Shown piece after piece: positions 1,950 to 23,031 of a stretch of 23,031 bases of DNA. Positions within the stretch are counted from its first letter, which is position 1. Each line of letters starts with the position of its first letter. The DNA is from a virus, in the IMG/VR virus record IMGVR_UViG_3300031281_000008, positions 1 through 23,031 of that record; one strand, written 5' to 3'. A program made the position numbers and the translations under genes. A model generated the notes under the pieces. The model was not told the origin of the DNA. It saw only the letters and a program-made list of their open reading frames with translations, and made no database searches.

Positions 1950-2984
1950 CTACGTAGCCCTGCCGCCTTCCTGCAGAATACGGACCCAGTCGATGTGCAT
2001 GACACCGGCTGCGGACTCATAGCCAGCAAAGGCTGATAGGCACATTACTGCGTTCGGGATCGCCGCCGTAGTGGTTCCGGTTTCGACCAGCGCCCCATTC
2101 ACATAGAATTTCACGCTTGTCAACCCGTCTATAACGAATCCGAGTTTGACGTAGGTGTTATTAACGTTGGCCGCAACATCAACCGTGGCGTCCTCAGTGC
2201 TGGTACGCGAACAGATCGAACTGATCTTGTTGTCCGTGCTAGCGGCATGGTGGAAGAAACCGCACTTGTCCACCACGTCATCGACCACGCCAGACGCCAT
2301 CAGGGTCGTGTCCACACCCGCAAGTCCGAGGTAGAACTGCTGGGTTGCATCGGTCATATTGACCCGGGCCTCGAACCTGATCGTCACGCCCGCAGCCGGT
2401 TTGAACAGACAGTTCGTAAGCTGGGCGTTGATCGAATCGTCGGCTGTCGAACCGACCGAGTTGACGACCAGCACGCCGCCTGGATCGGTAGCCAGGCCGG
2501 AGATGGTCCCGGTGGAGTTGCTCTGCGTGAGTGTCCAGCCGTCCCCAGTTGTTACGTCGATCGGACCGAGGAAATCGTCGAAGTAGTAGAAGTTGTCAGT
2601 CGGATTCAGAAGCGTAGCCAGGATCGGTGCCGCGTCCCAGATCAGGGGACTCGGTCCAGTTCCCGCTGCGGTGCCCGCAAGTTCGGTGGCATCAACATGA
2701 TCCACCACGTCTGAGGCTGTAACCACCGAGTCGATGTTCTCGGTAGTCACTACCTGGTTAAAGTCAGCACTCGCCAACGTACCCTCGTTGATATACACAG
2801 CACCGCTATCCGTGTCGATAAAGCGGCAACCGGGTGCGTACCCAGTTGCCGTATCGGTCGGAGTGGTTGTTCCATAGCAGAGGGTAATACCATCTTCGGT
2901 GGCGTGCTGAGTCTTAGGAGTCGCGGTCCCGGCCGGAGCCGGAATGAACCCCATGTCCTCAAGTTCCTTATACTGGAAAGCCAT
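1950..2984 (-). CDS. Lectin/LamG-fold-like virion protein, paralogue of its neighbour
   Basis: A 344-residue protein starting at ATG 2984, with GGAGG 5 nt upstream. The N-terminal third is unique and includes a module near residues 30-75 (CYGTTTPTDTATGYAPGC) resembling the short head of capsid-associated fibres. The C-terminal two thirds, from about residue 130 (YYFDDFLGP), form a beta-rich domain. It carries NNTYVKLGFVIDG, VKFYVNGALVETGT and a terminal IDWVRI, a pattern typical of concanavalin-A/LamG-like jelly rolls. The same signatures occur in the next gene upstream, so the two are paralogues. Probable role: capsid decoration, head fibre or glycan binding. It is the last gene before the terminator at 1862-1908. 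Confidence 0.8.
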   Translation of the reverse strand: MAFQYKELEDMGFIPAPAGTATPKTQHATEDGITLCYGTTTPTDTATGYAPGCRFIDTDSGAVYINEGTLASADFNQVVTTENIDSVVTASDVVDHVDATELAGTAAGTGPSPLIWDAAPILATLLNPTDNFYYFDDFLGPIDVTTGDGWTLTQSNSTGTISGLATDPGGVLVVNSVGSTADDSINAQLTNCLFKPAAGVTIRFEARVNMTDATQQFYLGLAGVDTTLMASGVVDDVVDKCGFFHHAASTDNKISSICSRTSTEDATVDVAANVNNTYVKLGFVIDGLTSVKFYVNGALVETGTTTAAIPNAVMCLSAFAGYESAAGVMHIDWVRILQEGGRAT

Positions 2985-2999
2985 AGTTTCCTCCGAAGA

Positions 3000-3833
3000 T
3001 TAGCGGCCGCAGGCGACCTTGTCGCACGCAAACCGTACCCAATCGATTTTGAGGTCATCGTTCCCACCGGCATCGTCCTTGATCCCGATGATGATGCCGA
3101 GGGCGTCATCCAGCTTATCGCTGGTCAAGTCATCGACATCGAGCGTCGTACCACTCGCCACACCGTTGACGAAGAACGTCACCGTAGACCGGCCGTCGAA
3201 CACGAAACCGAGCTTGACGTAGGTATCGTCATTGTCCGTGCCGCTGTTCGCGAGTACGTCGGCCTTCACGATGGTCACCGTACCGCTATCACCGTCCTGG
3301 TGATAGACGCTGTCGATCCCGCCCATGTTGGACCCGTCTGTACCAGCCATGAAACCGATAAAGTCGTAATCGTTAAGGGCGCTGGTCGGGTAGCTAGTGG
3401 GGTCGTCGGCGATCGCCTCAGCGGCCATCAGAGCGGATTCCCCGAGGCCACAGATGATCGACACGTCGGCATCGGCATCGTCCATCTTGATGCAAGCCTC
3501 GAACCACAACCGCTTGTTCGAGTTTTTCTTGATGACCTCGTTGCACAGTAGGTTACTGCACAGGTACGCCTCGTCATCGCCCGCGCCACTGCCGCTGATA
3601 TTGATGACGCCATACGGCTCATCGGTGACAACGGCGGTATCGGGGTTCGTACCGACCACCAGCCAGTTGCCGAGGATGACCTCGTTCGCGGTGAAATTGT
3701 TCAGGAAATCGTCCCACAGGTAGCAAAGCTCGTCAGGAGCAGTCAGCGACTTATCCACCGGGCAGCCCCCCCAGATGCTGGGGGAGGGCTGACCGGCGGT
3801 ACCCGCGTTGTTGTATCGAACAGCCAAACTCAT
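3000..3833 (-). CDS. Lectin/LamG-fold-like virion protein (paralogue)
   Basis: A 277-residue protein with ATG at 3833 and AGGAG 8 nt upstream. It shares the domain of the following gene in the same order. YLWDDFLNN is near residue 38, LWFEACIKMDD near 108, DDTYVKLGFVFDG and VTFFVNGVASGTT near 200-225, and LKIDWVRF close to the end. It lacks the longer N-terminal head of its paralogue. It lies directly downstream of the major capsid candidate, so it should be made in large amounts. Known relatives of this fold in phages are capsid decoration or adhesion proteins; the binding target cannot be read from the sequence. Confidence 0.8.
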   Translation of the reverse strand: MSLAVRYNNAGTAGQPSPSIWGGCPVDKSLTAPDELCYLWDDFLNNFTANEVILGNWLVVGTNPDTAVVTDEPYGVINISGSGAGDDEAYLCSNLLCNEVIKKNSNKRLWFEACIKMDDADADVSIICGLGESALMAAEAIADDPTSYPTSALNDYDFIGFMAGTDGSNMGGIDSVYHQDGDSGTVTIVKADVLANSGTDNDDTYVKLGFVFDGRSTVTFFVNGVASGTTLDVDDLTSDKLDDALGIIIGIKDDAGGNDDLKIDWVRFACDKVACGR

Positions 3834-5003: not shown

Positions 5004-6107
5004 TTACGCGAAAACTTCACGCAGTTTCGCGGCCATCTCGTCAAGTGCTTCTGCTCTGTTGAACTTACCGGGTCCGGCACGATCCGGTGTCCGGTTACCA
5101 TTGGGCTTCAATGTCAGCCCGCGTTCGCGTTTCTTCGCCGAGGCGGCGATTCGGTGGCGAACGACCTGCTCAGCCATCGGTGCAGCGATTTCAAGATGAG
5201 CCCGCTCCATAGCCTCTGCGGTCCCCATCTCCATTCCTGTTACAGCAGCACCGTATAGAATCATATGGGCCCGCTCACAAACCTCTTTTCGGTTTGCCCT
5301 CTGCCCCGGTGTAAGGTGCGACCAGTCTCCAAGTGCAGACGCGTTCTCGCCGTACAGATCGGAATACGCTTCCAGGTCATTAGACCCGAAGAACGTGTTG
5401 ATCTGCTGTCGGGCGGCGATTTCCTCTTCTACCGATCGCTGCGGAATTTCCGCCTGCTGGGGTTGGGACTGCGGCTGCGGCTGCGGCTGCGGCCGCTCTC
5501 GGCGGTCCTGCAATACCTCGATCAGTACATCCGCCAGCGGGTCATCGGCACCGTCGTAATGGTCCTTGATCCGCTCAATCAGTTTACCGATCCTGGCATT
5601 CGACTGCGGTGCATCCTGTTGCTGCTGTGACTGAGCGACAGGCCCGGCCTGGGCCTGCTTCTGTGTGGCACGTCCCAGGGCTCCGAGTTGCTGGGATGTC
5701 TTGTTGACCATCTCATAGCATTTCGCTACGGTCTTCACCGCGAGATCAGGTGACTTATCGTAGAGTTCGGAAATCTCCTCGGGGCTCATGCCCATACGAA
5801 TCGCTGCTCGATAATGACTGTCGGACAATGCTGGCTTGTCGTCTTCCTCACCACCATTGTCACTGTCCTGGGTAGGATCTGAATCAGCTTCCGCCTCCTT
5901 GTTCCCCCCGTCCAGATCAGTGTCGGTACTGGACTCGGGATCAGCCGTGCGGGTAGGTGTTTCGTCAGCTTCCAGTTTAGTGACAGGCGTATCTTGGGTA
6001 GACGCGGCGGATGTGGCACCCACCGGAGCAAGACCCCCGTCAAAATCGATCGCTTCGATTTGCTTCTGTAGTTTGTTGACTGCTTCCTGGTTCTCGTCTG
6101 CTGTCAT
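5004..6107 (-). CDS. Scaffolding-like capsid assembly protein
   Basis: A 367-residue protein starting at ATG 6107 after AAGGGGAGC. Residues about 10-95 are strongly acidic and disordered (DTDLDGGNKEAEADSD, NGGEEDDK). A Gln-rich stretch (AQSQQQQD) and a (PQ)n linker (PQPQPQPQSQPQQ) are in the middle. Helical segments and a basic C-terminus (RHRIAASAKKRERG) follow. An acidic head, coiled middle and basic capsid-binding tail, placed immediately before the capsid gene, is the standard description of a podovirus scaffold. The repeated CAG/CCG-type codons of the PQ tract could be length-variable between isolates. Alternative: another internal head protein. Confidence 0.8.
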   Translation of the reverse strand: MTADENQEAVNKLQKQIEAIDFDGGLAPVGATSAASTQDTPVTKLEADETPTRTADPESSTDTDLDGGNKEAEADSDPTQDSDNGGEEDDKPALSDSHYRAAIRMGMSPEEISELYDKSPDLAVKTVAKCYEMVNKTSQQLGALGRATQKQAQAGPVAQSQQQQDAPQSNARIGKLIERIKDHYDGADDPLADVLIEVLQDRRERPQPQPQPQSQPQQAEIPQRSVEEEIAARQQINTFFGSNDLEAYSDLYGENASALGDWSHLTPGQRANRKEVCERAHMILYGAAVTGMEMGTAEAMERAHLEIAAPMAEQVVRHRIAASAKKRERGLTLKPNGNRTPDRAGPGKFNRAEALDEMAAKLREVFA

Positions 6108-6118
6108 ATTAGCTCCCC

Positions 6119-6382
6119 TTAGTCAATTCGTGTATACCCAGCTTCAAATGCTTCCGCCGGACTCCAACTCGTGTACCCATCCTCGTACACCACATAGTAC
6201 CCCCCGACCTCGGGATCATGCTTGCGCATATACGCGGCTGGTAGAAATATCCAGTCGAAACCTTTGTCTTCCGGTAGAAACATACAGTCCCCGGAGGGCA
6301 GCGGTTCTCCCATCTCCTTAATCTTCAAGGCGTGAACGACTTTGTGGCTGCGATATTTTGGCATCTCTCCACTACAACACAT
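6119..6382 (-). CDS. Conserved small phage protein (GGYYVVYEDGY type)
   Basis: An 87-residue protein whose ATG at 6382 overlaps the preceding stop as TAATG, with GGGG 8 nt upstream. An alternative start at the second Met (MPKYRSHKVV) has its purine tract too close. The visible pattern is a basic N-terminus (YRSHKVVHALKI), a middle DWIFLPAAYMRKHDPEVGGYYVVY, and an end YTSWSPAEAFEAGYTRI. I have seen this layout in many small phage proteins of unknown function encoded near head genes. Its role is unknown. Confidence 0.75.
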   Translation of the reverse strand: MCCSGEMPKYRSHKVVHALKIKEMGEPLPSGDCMFLPEDKGFDWIFLPAAYMRKHDPEVGGYYVVYEDGYTSWSPAEAFEAGYTRID

Positions 6383-6759
6383 TACTTTGTCCCCTGATTC
6401 ACTGTGGCCTTGGTTACACGCCGCCGATTACGCTTCGGTGGCTTATAGATGCCGCGTGCTTCGAGGTATCTATCGTGCTGCTTGAAGCTGCGGAATACGG
6501 GTCGGCATTCCCTATCCAGCGGTACATCGGGATACCGCTCGTGATGTTCCGCTCGCTGCTCCGGATGAATTGCCAGGGCATCAGAGTGTAGCTCTTTAGA
6601 GTAGCTATCAGCATGTACCCGGGGCATATTCGCGGCTACGCTTCTACGCATGGGCGTTCCGCAGTCGAGACATTTCTCCGTCCGATCGAGATCAGACATG
6701 GACTTGACAACGTCCTCGTGCTCCCCACAAGCGTCACATACATATGCATATGTAGGAAT
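6382..6759 (-). CDS. FmdB-like zinc-ribbon protein with apparent ATT start
   Basis: An ATG start at 6699 would give 105 residues but would leave out the first half of the zinc ribbon. Reading upstream in the same frame gives MPTYAYVCDACGEHEDV if ATT at 6759 is the start. This places CDAC before CLDC (CxxC-x20-CxxC), as in FmdB-family ribbons that begin MPTY. An in-frame TGA lies six codons before ATT, and no ATG, GTG or TTG is available between. The tract GAGGGGGG is 8 nt before ATT, and the previous gene ends at TAA one base before it. After the ribbon come LAIHPEQRAEHHERYPDVPL, a Lys/Arg-rich tail, and a stop overlapping the next start. Role: small nucleic-acid or protein-binding zinc protein, function unknown. 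Confidence 0.75.
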   Translation of the reverse strand: MPTYAYVCDACGEHEDVVKSMSDLDRTEKCLDCGTPMRRSVAANMPRVHADSYSKELHSDALAIHPEQRAEHHERYPDVPLDRECRPVFRSFKQHDRYLEARGIYKPPKRNRRRVTKATVNQGTK

Positions 6760-12506: not shown

Positions 12507-13307
12507 TTAGTACCCGCTATACCCGTCGTAGGCCGGATGTTGAACTTCCGGCTCGGGATCTGGCGTACTTCCGACAACGTTGAATCGGCATAATTCAAAC
12601 CACTGCCGCACCGTCTCAAGCGTTGTATTGAATCTCACTGCCGGGACTGCCCAATTCAATGTAGCGTCCACCCCCGCTACAAGCACGCCAACAACTTCGC
12701 CATCCGTATTGAATACCGGTCCGCCGCTATTGCCCGGGTAGGCCGGAGACGTCGTTTGCAGCATCACGTGCCACGTGTACCGGGCCGCTTCGCTTGACGC
12801 TTGAGCGGTAAGGTCGCGGCTTGTAGCGCTGAGAATACCGAAGCTGAACGTATTGAAGTTGTCCTTCCCGAGCGGGCTACCCCCGATAATCAGGCCGTCC
12901 CCCACCCTGGGATCGCGGGTAGTTAGTGCGGCGTAGGGCAGGTTTGGTTCCTGGCCGCCGAGGTCCAACTGCATGAAGCTCACGTCGTTCTCGGTATCCT
13001 CGATCGTATACTTGACCGGAAACTGCCGTCCGTCATCCAGGGTTACGGTGTATTCCCCCGGCTCGCTGTCGCTGACATGCTTGGCGCTGAATAGAATCCC
13101 ATCGGGGGAAATCAGGCACCCGGAGCCCTGGCATTCTCCCTGCTTGAGGATATGCACGACAGCCGGCCGTATTCTGGCGACTTGCGGAGCGATGGTGAAG
13201 TGCTGGTCTTGGTCTTGGATTTCCGGATGATACACGACCAGTGCGTATACCGCCACTACTGTGACAGCCAATATGATGATATTCCGCAGCCTCAAGGGTT
13301 CTTTCAT
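12507..13307 (-). CDS. Membrane-anchored HtrA/DegP-like trypsin-fold serine protease
   Basis: A 266-residue protein. ATG 13307 has GGGGAA in front and overlaps the previous stop as ATGA. Residues 8-26 form one hydrophobic segment (IIILAVTVVAVYALVVY), a signal anchor. This places the protease domain outside the cytoplasm. The catalytic triad is visible: His in SAKHVSD (about 77), Asp in TENDVSFMQL (about 108) and Ser in PGNSGGPVFN (about 194). The region VGDGLIIGGSPLG and a C-terminal Pro/Glu-rich tail follow. No PDZ domain is present, unlike complete DegP. Located between the GroES-like and repeat-protein genes, it may act on the host envelope or a secreted target; a prohead-protease role is less likely because of the anchor. 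Confidence 0.87.
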   Translation of the reverse strand: MKEPLRLRNIIILAVTVVAVYALVVYHPEIQDQDQHFTIAPQVARIRPAVVHILKQGECQGSGCLISPDGILFSAKHVSDSEPGEYTVTLDDGRQFPVKYTIEDTENDVSFMQLDLGGQEPNLPYAALTTRDPRVGDGLIIGGSPLGKDNFNTFSFGILSATSRDLTAQASSEAARYTWHVMLQTTSPAYPGNSGGPVFNTDGEVVGVLVAGVDATLNWAVPAVRFNTTLETVRQWFELCRFNVVGSTPDPEPEVQHPAYDGYSGY

Positions 13308-13489
13308 CTCTGTTCCCCTACGAGTAGCCGGTAACATCGCAGGATCGAGTACAGGGCTACGGCTATGCTCGTCCATATGAACAAAGGTTCCAACATGCTA
13401 CATGACATCGGGGCTCGAACCCGAATCGATTTCTGTTGGCCAGCAGCATAGTAACCGGCTACTATCCCTCGTCGTCGTACCTTGGCCAC
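13304..13489 (-). CDS. Small membrane protein, start uncertain
   Basis: The end is well supported, because its TGA overlaps the protease ATG (ATGA). The start is not. GTG 13489 gives 61 residues without a clear Shine-Dalgarno; ATG 13396 gives a 30-residue peptide made of one membrane segment (LEPLFIWTSIAVALYSILR) with a basic tail. In the alternative a separate 35-residue frame (13505-13398) would precede it, coupled at both ends. The hydrophobic segment is the only informative feature. A short inner-membrane peptide next to a membrane-anchored protease could be a partner, but this is a guess. Confidence 0.5.
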   Translation of the reverse strand: MAKVRRRGIVAGYYAAGQQKSIRVRAPMSCSMLEPLFIWTSIAVALYSILRCYRLLVGEQR

Positions 13490-20071: not shown

Positions 20072-20824
20072 ATGATCCGGTACAAGCTGGTTACAAAGAA
20101 TTATAAGACCAGGAAAGGACACGGCAACGAGACTACGTGGGAGATCGGAAAACGTGTAGAAGCTACAGGCGACCCGTCGCAGGGTTTATGCTCAGATGCG
20201 TATGTGCATTGTTATGACAGTCCGCACTTGGCCTTGCTGATGAACCCAGTTCACGCAAGTATACCAAACCCCCGGCTACTGGAGGTCCGTGTACACGGCC
20301 GGAGCAGGAACGACTACGGGCTCAAGCGGGGCTACCGCGCGATGACTCCGGTCAAAGAAATCAGTTGCCCCCCGATAACGAAAACCCAACGGGTGAGGTT
20401 CGCGATCCTCTGTGTATTAGAGGTGTACCACAATCCCGACTTCGTAGAGTGGGCTAATAACTGGCTTGAGGGGAGAGACCGTACCGCCCATGCTGCCAAT
20501 GCCGCCAATGCTGCCGCCCATGCTGCCAATGCCGCCTGTGCTGCACGGGCTACTGCCAATGCTGCCGCCTATGTTGCCTATGCTGTCGATGCCGCCTATG
20601 CTGCCGTCTATGCTGCCAATGCTGCTGTCGATGCTGCCTATGCTGTCGATGCTGTCGATGCTGTCGATGCCGCCAATGCTGCCGTCAATGCTGCCGCCTA
20701 TGCTGCCAGTGCTGCCGCCTATGCTGCCTATGCTTCCCATGTTGCCGATGCTGCTGCCTACGCTGCCGGTGCCAGGGTACTAGATTTAGTGGCTATAGCC
20801 GAGAAGGCGTGTACCGAAGAGTGA
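20072..20824 (+). CDS. DUF7666-like protein with extreme Ala-rich repeat region
   Basis: A 250-residue protein; GGAGAACGAG precedes ATG 20072. Residues 1-138 form a folded-looking domain (WEIGKRVEATGDPSQGLCSD; AYVHCYDSPHLALLMNP; VHGRSRNDYGLKRGYRAM). It resembles DUF7666-type phage domains. Residues about 139-234 are almost entirely Ala with Asn, Tyr, Val, Asp and His (AHAANAANAAAHAANAA and similar), so a long amphipathic-poor helix or coil. The end ARVLDLVAIAEKAC is a normal helix. Function unknown; the repeat is described separately. Confidence 0.72.
   Translation: MIRYKLVTKNYKTRKGHGNETTWEIGKRVEATGDPSQGLCSDAYVHCYDSPHLALLMNPVHASIPNPRLLEVRVHGRSRNDYGLKRGYRAMTPVKEISCPPITKTQRVRFAILCVLEVYHNPDFVEWANNWLEGRDRTAHAANAANAAAHAANAACAARATANAAAYVAYAVDAAYAAVYAANAAVDAAYAVDAVDAVDAANAAVNAAAYAASAAAYAAYASHVADAAAYAAGARVLDLVAIAEKACTEE
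20486..20773 (+). repeat. GCN-type trinucleotide-rich coding repeat
   Basis: About 290 bp of tandem GCTGCC/AAT, GCCTAT and GTCGAT codons coding for alanine-rich triplets such as NAA, YAA and VDA. Units are imperfect but dense, a likely site of slippage or recombination. Confidence 0.85.
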
Positions 20825-21682: not shown

Positions 21683-21724
21683 GTCTCAGGTAACAACTGT
21701 GACAGTATTATGAGGAGACCAATA

Positions 21725-22132
21725 ATGGACAAAGCAGATAGCTTCTTAAGACAATGTGTTATCGACGGCCGAATGACGGAGGCTGAGTACCTCTCCGTCC
21801 GGCTTGACCGCGAGAGCAGCGAATGCACTCGTCCGGACTGGAAGGAATTCACCGCTGTCCCGGACGATGTCTTGGCCCCGCTCGGGCTCACTGTCCGGGA
21901 CTGCGAGATATACATCAATTACCCGGCCTGGACTCTCGCTGCGATCGCCGAACGCACCGGGATCACGATTAAATCGGTTCGCCGGGCACTCGCTCGCGTC
22001 CGGGGTTGTTTCCCATCGCTATGTAACGACCCATCCGGTAACCAGGGTTTGCCCAACTTGAGCCACATGATACCGCTGGACGCGCCCAACGTGTACGAGC
22101 CGGATATCATGGGGGAAGCGGTTAAGTTCTGA
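21725..22132 (+). CDS. HTH DNA-binding protein (sigma/region-4-like)
   Basis: A 135-residue protein; GAGGAGACC precedes ATG 21725. Residues about 69-93 (WTLAAIAERTGITIKSVRRA and the following LARVRG) form a good helix-turn-helix, with AAIAERTGI as first helix and SVRRALARV as recognition helix. The N-terminal part (DKADSFLRQCVIDGRMTEAE) is helical and acidic. No sigma region 2 or nuclease domain is present. It probably regulates phage transcription or binds the upstream palindromes, but that partner is inferred. The structured element at 22136-22210 follows 3 bp after its stop. Confidence 0.72.
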   Translation: MDKADSFLRQCVIDGRMTEAEYLSVRLDRESSECTRPDWKEFTAVPDDVLAPLGLTVRDCEIYINYPAWTLAAIAERTGITIKSVRRALARVRGCFPSLCNDPSGNQGLPNLSHMIPLDAPNVYEPDIMGEAVKF

Positions 22133-22224: not shown

Positions 22225-22653
22225 ATGAATAAAAAGGACACCAATCCGAAAGATGCCGTTGGCGTGCGTAAGTGGCGGCAGTATGCGACGGTCCCATGCA
22301 CTGCGATCTGGGCCATAGGCGCTGCGATGCTGGAGGGAGCCCGCAAGTACGGACGGCACAATTATCGTGTAGCCGGGGTTCGGGCCTCCGTATACGTGGA
22401 CGCTGCAAAGGGGCACATCGACCAGTTTTGGGAGGGGGAGGACCTCGACAAGGACAGTGGGTTACCCCATCTCGCAAAAGCGATGGCGTCACTCGTTGTC
22501 TTGTACGATGGGATTGCCGTTGGGAACTGGGTAGACGACCGCCCTCCGCGTATAGACCTGGACCATGTACGGCAGGAACTACAGGATGCCGTGGATGGTA
22601 TCTTTGATAGAATCCCGAACGCGGCACCCCCGTACACGGAGATAGGCGACTGA
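22225..22653 (+). CDS. dATP/dGTP diphosphohydrolase-like protein (DUF5664/MazZ-like)
   Basis: A 142-residue protein; ATG 22225 follows GAGG at 7 nt, and I reject an upstream ATG (22153) that lies in the hairpin. The family hydrolyses purine dNTPs to dNMP and pyrophosphate using a MazG-like metal site. The conserved order is NPKDAVGVRKW at the start, AAMLEGARKYGRHNY (33-47), SVYVDAAKGHIDQFWEGED (55-73), DLDKDSGLPHLAKAM (73-87) and VDDRPPRI. Candidate metal ligands are Glu37, Glu70 and Glu72 with Asp73/Asp77. The family is widespread in phages, where it can alter the dNTP pool or filter dATP in 2-aminoadenine phages. Its length is normal for a single-domain form. Confidence 0.85.
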   Translation: MNKKDTNPKDAVGVRKWRQYATVPCTAIWAIGAAMLEGARKYGRHNYRVAGVRASVYVDAAKGHIDQFWEGEDLDKDSGLPHLAKAMASLVVLYDGIAVGNWVDDRPPRIDLDHVRQELQDAVDGIFDRIPNAAPPYTEIGD

Positions 22654-22919
22654 TGGATGGTATCAATGGCATATTCGAGAGCGTAGGTTGCGTGTTCGTA
22701 TTCCTGAATGTGCTGCGGCTACATCGGGACAAAAAAGTCCGTGGGGTCAGCCCGATAGCAGTTATTTTCTTTACCCTGTGGGGGTTTTGGAACCTCCTGT
22801 ATTACCCCTCGCTTGGCCAATGGTTTAGCGTCGTGGGTGCCGGTGGCGTTGCTGGTATGAATGCCATATGGCTAGGGCAAATGGTTTACTATCTGAGAAA
22901 GGAAAGGTATGAACTCTGA
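22653..22919 (+). CDS. Small membrane protein, SemiSWEET/MtN3-like
   Basis: An 88-residue protein coupled to the previous stop as TGATG. Three membrane segments are visible: about 8-23 (FESVGCVFVFLNVLRL), 34-50 (SPIAVIFFTLWGFWNLLYY) and 60-80 (GAGGVAGMNAIWLGQMVYYL). The pattern (three helices, WGFWNLLYYPSLGQ, charged loop, K/R-rich end) fits a SemiSWEET half-transporter or a related small phage membrane protein. It lies between a nucleotide hydrolase and the start of an HD hydrolase. Transport of a sugar or nucleoside is possible but not shown. Confidence 0.7.
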   Translation: MDGINGIFESVGCVFVFLNVLRLHRDKKVRGVSPIAVIFFTLWGFWNLLYYPSLGQWFSVVGAGGVAGMNAIWLGQMVYYLRKERYEL

Positions 22920-23031
22920 GATACTAACTGCAACCGGTAAGCTGGTTGATCTTATGTCACCGGACCCCAGTGATGTATGTATCGAGGACATAGCCCATGC
23001 GCTGAGTAATACCTGTCGGTTCGCCGGGCAT
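22909..23031 (+). CDS. HD-domain hydrolase-like protein, N-terminal part (cut by window edge)
   Basis: The start ATG 22909 lies 11 nt inside the previous gene and AAAGG is upstream. Only 41 residues are in the window: TGKLVDLMSPDPSDVCIEDI, then AHALSNTCRFAGH. Early residues of this kind (DL...P.P.DI.IEDIAHALSxxxRFxGH) match the beginning of YfbR-like HD phosphohydrolases. The catalytic HD pair itself should lie past the window edge, so the call is from the opening motif only. Confidence 0.7.
   Translation, partial: MNSEILTATGKLVDLMSPDPSDVCIEDIAHALSNTCRFAGH

Follow-up and report, generated by a model that had tools for sequence, protein, structure and literature searches.

An exchangeable enzyme slot beside DUF5664 in uncultivated phages: a candidate two-step dNTP-draining cassette without evidence of base replacement

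Introduction

Phage-encoded hydrolases of purine dNTPs are best explained where 2-aminoadenine replaces adenine (Z-DNA). In the PurZ-MazZ-DatZ cluster of cyanophage S-2L, and in SH-Ab 15497, a dNTP hydrolase is encoded near an HD hydrolase, as at the locus described here. In PurZ0 Z-phages such as Wayne, DUF5664-1 occurs with DutZ/DmtZ, and a stand-alone DUF5664 is again found beside an NDT-family enzyme that acts on dNMPs (PMC12884076). In vitro, the stand-alone DUF5664 of Arthrobacter phage Wayne converts dATP, dUTP and dGTP to dNMPs (PMC12884076), and because it does so alone, DUF5664 can be an enzyme by itself. In the Wayne-type scheme the dNMPs are then broken down (PMC12884076), and the same theme is what we propose here.

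The locus lies at the end of a viral DNA of 23,031 bases (the window, by which we mean the whole stretch analyzed), which is IMG/VR record IMGVR_UViG_3300031281_000008 in full. A sequence-only reading of the window had proposed that a MazZ-like DUF5664 protein and an HD hydrolase form a purine-dNTP-filtering pair that might belong to a complete or reduced 2-aminoadenine system. We compared the locus with its relatives and with these described systems.

Results

Gene layout at the end of the window

The window closes with the following genes:

21710..22132, + strand: helix-turn-helix (HTH) protein, sigma-70 region-4-like, 140 aa (weak Sigma70_r4_2 match, E 0.002)
22225..22653, + strand: stand-alone, complete DUF5664 protein (PF18909, dGTP_diPhyd_N), 142 aa (77.7 bits)
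22653..22919, + strand: small three-helix membrane protein with a predicted SemiSWEET fold, 88 aa (AlphaFold2 and Foldseek)
22909..23031, + strand: HD-domain hydrolase of the phrog_318/Atu1052 type, first 41 residues (phrog_318, 5.1e-16)

The membrane protein gene shares 1 base with the end of the DUF5664 gene and 11 bases with the beginning of the HD gene. The HD gene is cut at residue 41, since the window is the entire viral record. In its description of these genes the earlier reading was accurate: the motifs it quoted for DUF5664 (NPKDAVG, LEGARKYGRHNY and GEDLDKDSG) are all present in the 142-aa frame, and the HD frame begins one small gene downstream and runs for exactly 41 residues to the contig end. 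Judged by these sequence matches, the observation of a DUF5664 gene together with an HD fragment is far beyond chance. In relatives, an HTH gene is often found upstream of DUF5664 at the same position, as recognized by a profile seeded with the window protein.

Several other features of the window were noted. We set aside a terminator-like stem at 22931-22948, which falls within the HD gene and is no more than expected by chance. An Ala/Asn-rich frame with a degenerate repeat occupies 20072-20824 (+), and locus L091 has a similar gene (2243-3046) upstream of its HTH gene. A serine-protease-like gene (12507-13376, -; phrog_9683, "protease") is close to the terminase, and such genes are also close to the terminase in L096 (4416-5204) and L369 (9433-10053).

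The DUF5664 protein

The window protein matches PF18909 (formerly DUF5664) well above the Pfam cut-off of 27 bits, over positions 2-99 of 99, and it also matches phrog_2252 (1.2e-54). Across an alignment of 36 rows, 21 residues do not vary, including E37, H64, D75, D95, D104, D105 and R106. The AlphaFold2 model is all-helical (pLDDT 87.8). With this model Foldseek gave no PDB match at the E 0.001 level, the best one listed having E 2.2, so that a MazG-like fold is neither supported nor excluded, and a sequence search of the PDB gave chance-level matches only. By analogy with the Wayne enzyme, we predict that the protein is a dATP/dGTP(/dUTP) pyrophosphohydrolase.

In a tree of 42 rows, the window protein falls within a clade of 26 phage sequences that includes those of Gaia, Manda, Hannaconda, RcCWillis, Pan1 and R5C. 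A split with support of 100/100 separates this clade from the group to which both Z-phage clades belong. No PurZ was found in any of the six named phages. In Mycobacterium phage Gaia (L077), which is one of them, genes annotated as nucleoside 2-deoxyribosyltransferase, MazG-like protein and DUF5664 are consecutive (5226-6423).

RefSeq phage DUF5664 proteins (H4, H7, H13 and others) carry the label "endolysin; inhibits RNA polymerase". This label appears to be wrong and to have been carried over from the name of phrog_2252; our analysis gave no support for a role of DUF5664 proteins in lysis.

The HD fragment

In addition to phrog_318, a family annotated as HD deoxyribonucleoside 5'-monophosphate phosphatases, the fragment matches Atu1052 (PDB 2gz4, 0.0016), and its N-terminal segment is of the phrog_318 type and closes with R[FY]xGH. 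To compare it with DatZ, we built local HMMs from six DatZ proteins and from six phrog_318 proteins, with leave-one-out controls. The fragment scored 57.5 bits on the phrog_318-type HMM and had no match to the DatZ HMM. When left out, the six phrog_318 N-termini reached 42-53 bits with their own profile and no more than -0.9 with that of DatZ, while the six DatZ N-termini, cut to 41 residues, reached 35-53 bits with DatZ and no more than 9.5 with phrog_318. These clean scores show that 41 residues are enough to tell phrog_318 from DatZ. BLASTP gave no alignment between the fragment and S-2L DatZ. In a tree of HD proteins, the window fragment and the full-length HDs of related loci group with phrog_318, and DatZ and E. 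coli YfbR lie on the opposite side of a 100/100 split. The description of the fragment as a YfbR-like HD hydrolase is thus right as to HD and loose as to YfbR, since E. coli YfbR is on the DatZ side and the nearest solved relative is Atu1052.

We predict that the window HD is a deoxyribonucleoside 5'-monophosphate phosphatase. The gene is cut before the metal-binding residues, and the HD may not be intact; of ten complete or nearly complete HDs of the slot type, each shows the arginine and first-histidine motifs and seven show the strict HDAxE pattern. Most phage loci that encode this HD family have no DUF5664 nearby.

The membrane protein

The 88-aa protein gave a confident AlphaFold2 model of three helices (pLDDT 94.0). 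Its best Foldseek match in the PDB was the SemiSWEET 4rng (TM 0.81/0.86, probability 1.00, E only 0.03), and the first 15 matches were all SemiSWEET or SWEET proteins. The family was aligned from 13 relatives, and among its 13 members none matched a Pfam family above cut-off, transporters included. On the strength of the model, the protein is predicted to have a SemiSWEET fold. We found no study of a phage SemiSWEET in the literature library searched.

An exchangeable slot in related loci

Starting from terminase relatives of the window, we reached contigs that carry an NDT-like gene and then a metallophosphoesterase (MPE) gene after DUF5664. Among these terminase-related contigs, phrog_318 was found in the window and two control phages only; relatives with an HD gene were recovered through MPE and HD alignments instead of terminase. 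We then took a census by searching with the MPE alignment and retaining 34 non-redundant loci having PolA downstream or an HTH gene upstream. The layout common to these relatives is DUF5664, a slot, MPE and PolA.

The slot before MPE holds an NDT-like gene in 20 loci, a HAD gene in 10, an HD gene in 2 and a DUF1937 gene in 2, and never two enzymes. Our profiles recognized the slot enzyme in 32/34 loci, and the two apparent blanks proved to be the DUF1937 genes, which also match DUF4406. Slot genes mostly overlap or abut MPE. From their sequence relationships, all four families are predicted to act on deoxynucleoside monophosphates. The HAD enzyme matches NT5C above cut-off and the 5'(3')-deoxyribonucleotidase 2jao in the PDB (1.4e-5), and full-length slot HDs match phrog_318 (6e-56) and Atu1052. 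The weakest of the assignments is that of the NDT-like family, which scores under Pfam cut-offs and matches phrog_355, nucleoside 2-deoxyribosyltransferase, at up to 1.8e-7. Its invariant Y4, D73 and E100 are spaced almost like the catalytic Tyr6, Asn77 and Glu103 of DmtZ, and a profile comparison with the DmtZ part of Wayne was weak (probability 65%). In another phage group (L213, L215, L216 and L219), a HAD deoxyribonucleotidase-like gene lies about 1 kb after MPE.

The exchange is most easily seen in a pair of close relatives, L277 with an HD gene and L266 with a HAD gene, which share 94.8% identity in MPE, 80.2% in PolA and 79.5% in the membrane protein. Their DNA aligns over the membrane protein gene, fails to align within the slot and aligns once more where MPE begins. 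HD and HAD genes are therefore swapped cleanly between close relatives. Across the group, the PolA tree requires at least 8 slot changes. In one locus (L231:3124-3894), a DUF5664 domain and an NDT-like domain are naturally fused in one reading frame. DUF5664 was not recognized as a separate gene by our local profile in 14/34 loci, of which L231 is the fusion and L233 has a divergent candidate (E 0.024), so that the slot enzyme can stand without DUF5664.

L277, which is on a 50-kb contig, and L286 have the order HTH, DUF5664, membrane protein, HD, MPE and PolA. This is the order of the window, and L277 has the same 1-base and 11-base overlaps; MPE is thus probably the next gene, missing from the window. 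The membrane protein is upstream of HD in eight HD loci, whose HDs form one clade. Within the 34 loci, it accompanies 5/12 phosphatase slots and 0/20 NDT-like slots (Fisher p 0.004, for related loci that are not independent).

Evidence bearing on Z-DNA

The 2-aminoadenine part of the earlier proposal found no support. One outcome that the earlier reading had itself named as refuting, an HD protein that does not group with DatZ, is what we observed. PurZ (PF00709) gave no match in the window or in 61 distinct related contigs, 23 of which are at least 46 kb, although contigs may be incomplete; the positive controls SH-Ab 15497, S-2L and Wayne all scored. The MazZ-like identity fared no better: S-2L MazZ belongs to PF04447, the window protein matches only PF18909, and BLASTP gave no alignment between the two. 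MazZ (PF04447/DUF550) was found in 0/23 records of the group, window included. PolA proteins from 22 related contigs, representing a region that in this phage lies beyond the window, cluster together and separately from both DpoZ-1 and DpoZ-2; the tree program warns of long branches meeting near DpoZ-1. A non-exhaustive Pfam scan of ten proteins of an HD-slot relative (G029) identified families for replication and nucleases and none for base modification. What stands is the pair itself: enzymes acting on purine dNTPs are plausible, given the activity of Wayne DUF5664 and the annotation of the HD family as dNMP phosphatases, and a 2-aminoadenine system is not supported, with no PurZ in the window or related contigs, no PF04447 MazZ in the 23 records and an HD that does not group with DatZ.

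Discussion

Gene identities, gene order, slot exchange and the absence of PurZ in relatives are established here; substrates and purpose are what we infer. We lean toward the view that a two-step cassette for draining dNTPs begins with these three genes, in a tailed phage that shows no evidence of base replacement. In the first step, DUF5664 would hydrolyze purine dNTPs, and probably dUTP, to dNMP and pyrophosphate, as the characterized member of its family does. In the second, the slot enzyme would destroy the dNMP and so block its re-phosphorylation. In the window, the HD 5'-nucleotidase would yield a deoxynucleoside, and the nucleotide would be lost to the pool; in relatives, the equivalent step would fall to a HAD 5'(3')-deoxyribonucleotidase or to an enzyme with the NDT fold, of a type to which dNMP N-glycosidases belong. 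The purpose may be to lower or skew part of the dNTP pool, for example against the host or a rival phage. As a guess, the SemiSWEET-fold protein may carry the product across the membrane. Selection for the combined reaction best accounts for the exchange of unrelated enzymes at one site and for the single fusion.

A fuller scheme would be a modular drain in which one dNTP pyrophosphohydrolase is combined with any of several unrelated dNMP destroyers and, where the destroyer is a phosphatase, sometimes with a SemiSWEET-fold protein that exports the nucleoside, all in a lineage without known base replacement. We offer this as speculation that is unlikely to be correct in every part.

If the cassette is not a drain, it could be a form of house-cleaning, in which the main task of DUF5664 is to remove dUTP in phages that lack a dUTPase, with dUMP or other stray monophosphates left to the slot enzyme. 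Wayne DUF5664 does hydrolyze dUTP, with a kcat of 0.22 per s vs 0.48 per s for dATP (PMC12884076), no PF00692 dUTPase was found in the 23 group records, and the NT5C-type slot enzymes take their name from pyrimidine deoxynucleotides. However, destroying dUMP with an N-glycosidase or a phosphatase would waste a precursor of thymidylate, and PF00692 is one dUTPase family only. We consider house-cleaning rather improbable, if the most credible of the alternatives.

The slot could also be a mere insertion hotspot for unrelated accessory genes, with the common theme a coincidence. Its mosaic content, with the repeated changes on the PolA tree, would fit, and so would the fact that our profiles were built for families first met in the slot. 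Yet 34/34 slots hold one of four families predicted for deoxynucleotides, and never two, where unrelated genes would also be expected; reading frames overlap, and one pair of genes is fused. Coincidence of this kind seems to us quite unlikely.

We find a third possibility decidedly unlikely, namely that the cassette recycles phosphate or bases of degraded host DNA, or removes nucleotides that host defenses sense or make. Phosphatases, glycosidases and a transporter-like fold would all suit scavenging, but the substrates of DUF5664 are triphosphates and not DNA breakdown products. Nucleotide-sensing and nucleotide-depleting defenses do exist (PMC12265719), but we found no link to any defense system.

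Finally, a full or reduced Z-DNA system, in which the pair removes dATP and dGTP while 2-aminoadenine replaces adenine, is suggested by the presence of DUF5664 in Z-phages (adjoining PurZ0 in Wayne, and in the protein after PurZ in SH-Ab 15497), by the HD hydrolase close to DUF5664 and by the mere 23 kb known of this phage, and is opposed by the absence of PurZ from the window and 61 related contigs with controls scoring, the absence of PF04447 MazZ from the 23 records, an HD that is not DatZ by HMM and tree, a DUF5664 outside both Z-phage clades and relatives' PolA outside DpoZ-1 and DpoZ-2; given possibly incomplete contigs and a phage genome seen only in part, we call it highly unlikely and put it no more strongly.

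If the dNTP-draining reading is correct, the same biochemical theme is conserved in an uncultivated phage group in which no PurZ was found, with the second enzyme repeatedly replaced by unrelated folds. Such replacement points to selection on the pathway and not on any single protein. It suggests that a dNTP drain is useful apart from Z-DNA, and it gives a testable reason for the presence of DUF5664 in many phages without PurZ.

Comparison with known systems

The S-2L cluster resembles this locus in outline and differs in its components: here there is no PF04447 MazZ, the HD is of the phrog_318 type and not DatZ, and PurZ was not found. In SH-Ab 15497, DUF5664 is fused to DUF550, whereas that of the window is stand-alone. 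Gaia, Manda, Hannaconda, RcCWillis, Pan1 and R5C encode PF18909 proteins of the window's clade with 55-65% identity. Several of these genes are close to MazG, dCMP deaminase or nucleoside deoxyribosyltransferase genes, and the order DUF5664, membrane protein, HD is not annotated in the regions read. Atu1052 (2gz4), deposited as a hypothetical protein, and phrog_318 match both the N-terminal segment in the window and its full-length counterparts. The SemiSWEET transporters 4rng and 4qnc are alike in the predicted three-helix fold (TM about 0.8), and no sequence match to a transporter family reached cut-off.

Compared with the PurZ0 Z-phages, the window and the tested relatives gave no PurZ or PF00692 dUTPase, their DUF5664 proteins mostly form a separate clade, and the second enzyme can be exchanged among HD, HAD, NDT-like and DUF1937. 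The closest precedent is nonetheless DUF5664 with DmtZ in the PurZ0 Z-phages (PMC12884076); what is new here is a locus without PurZ, another DUF5664 clade in the window and an exchangeable second enzyme.
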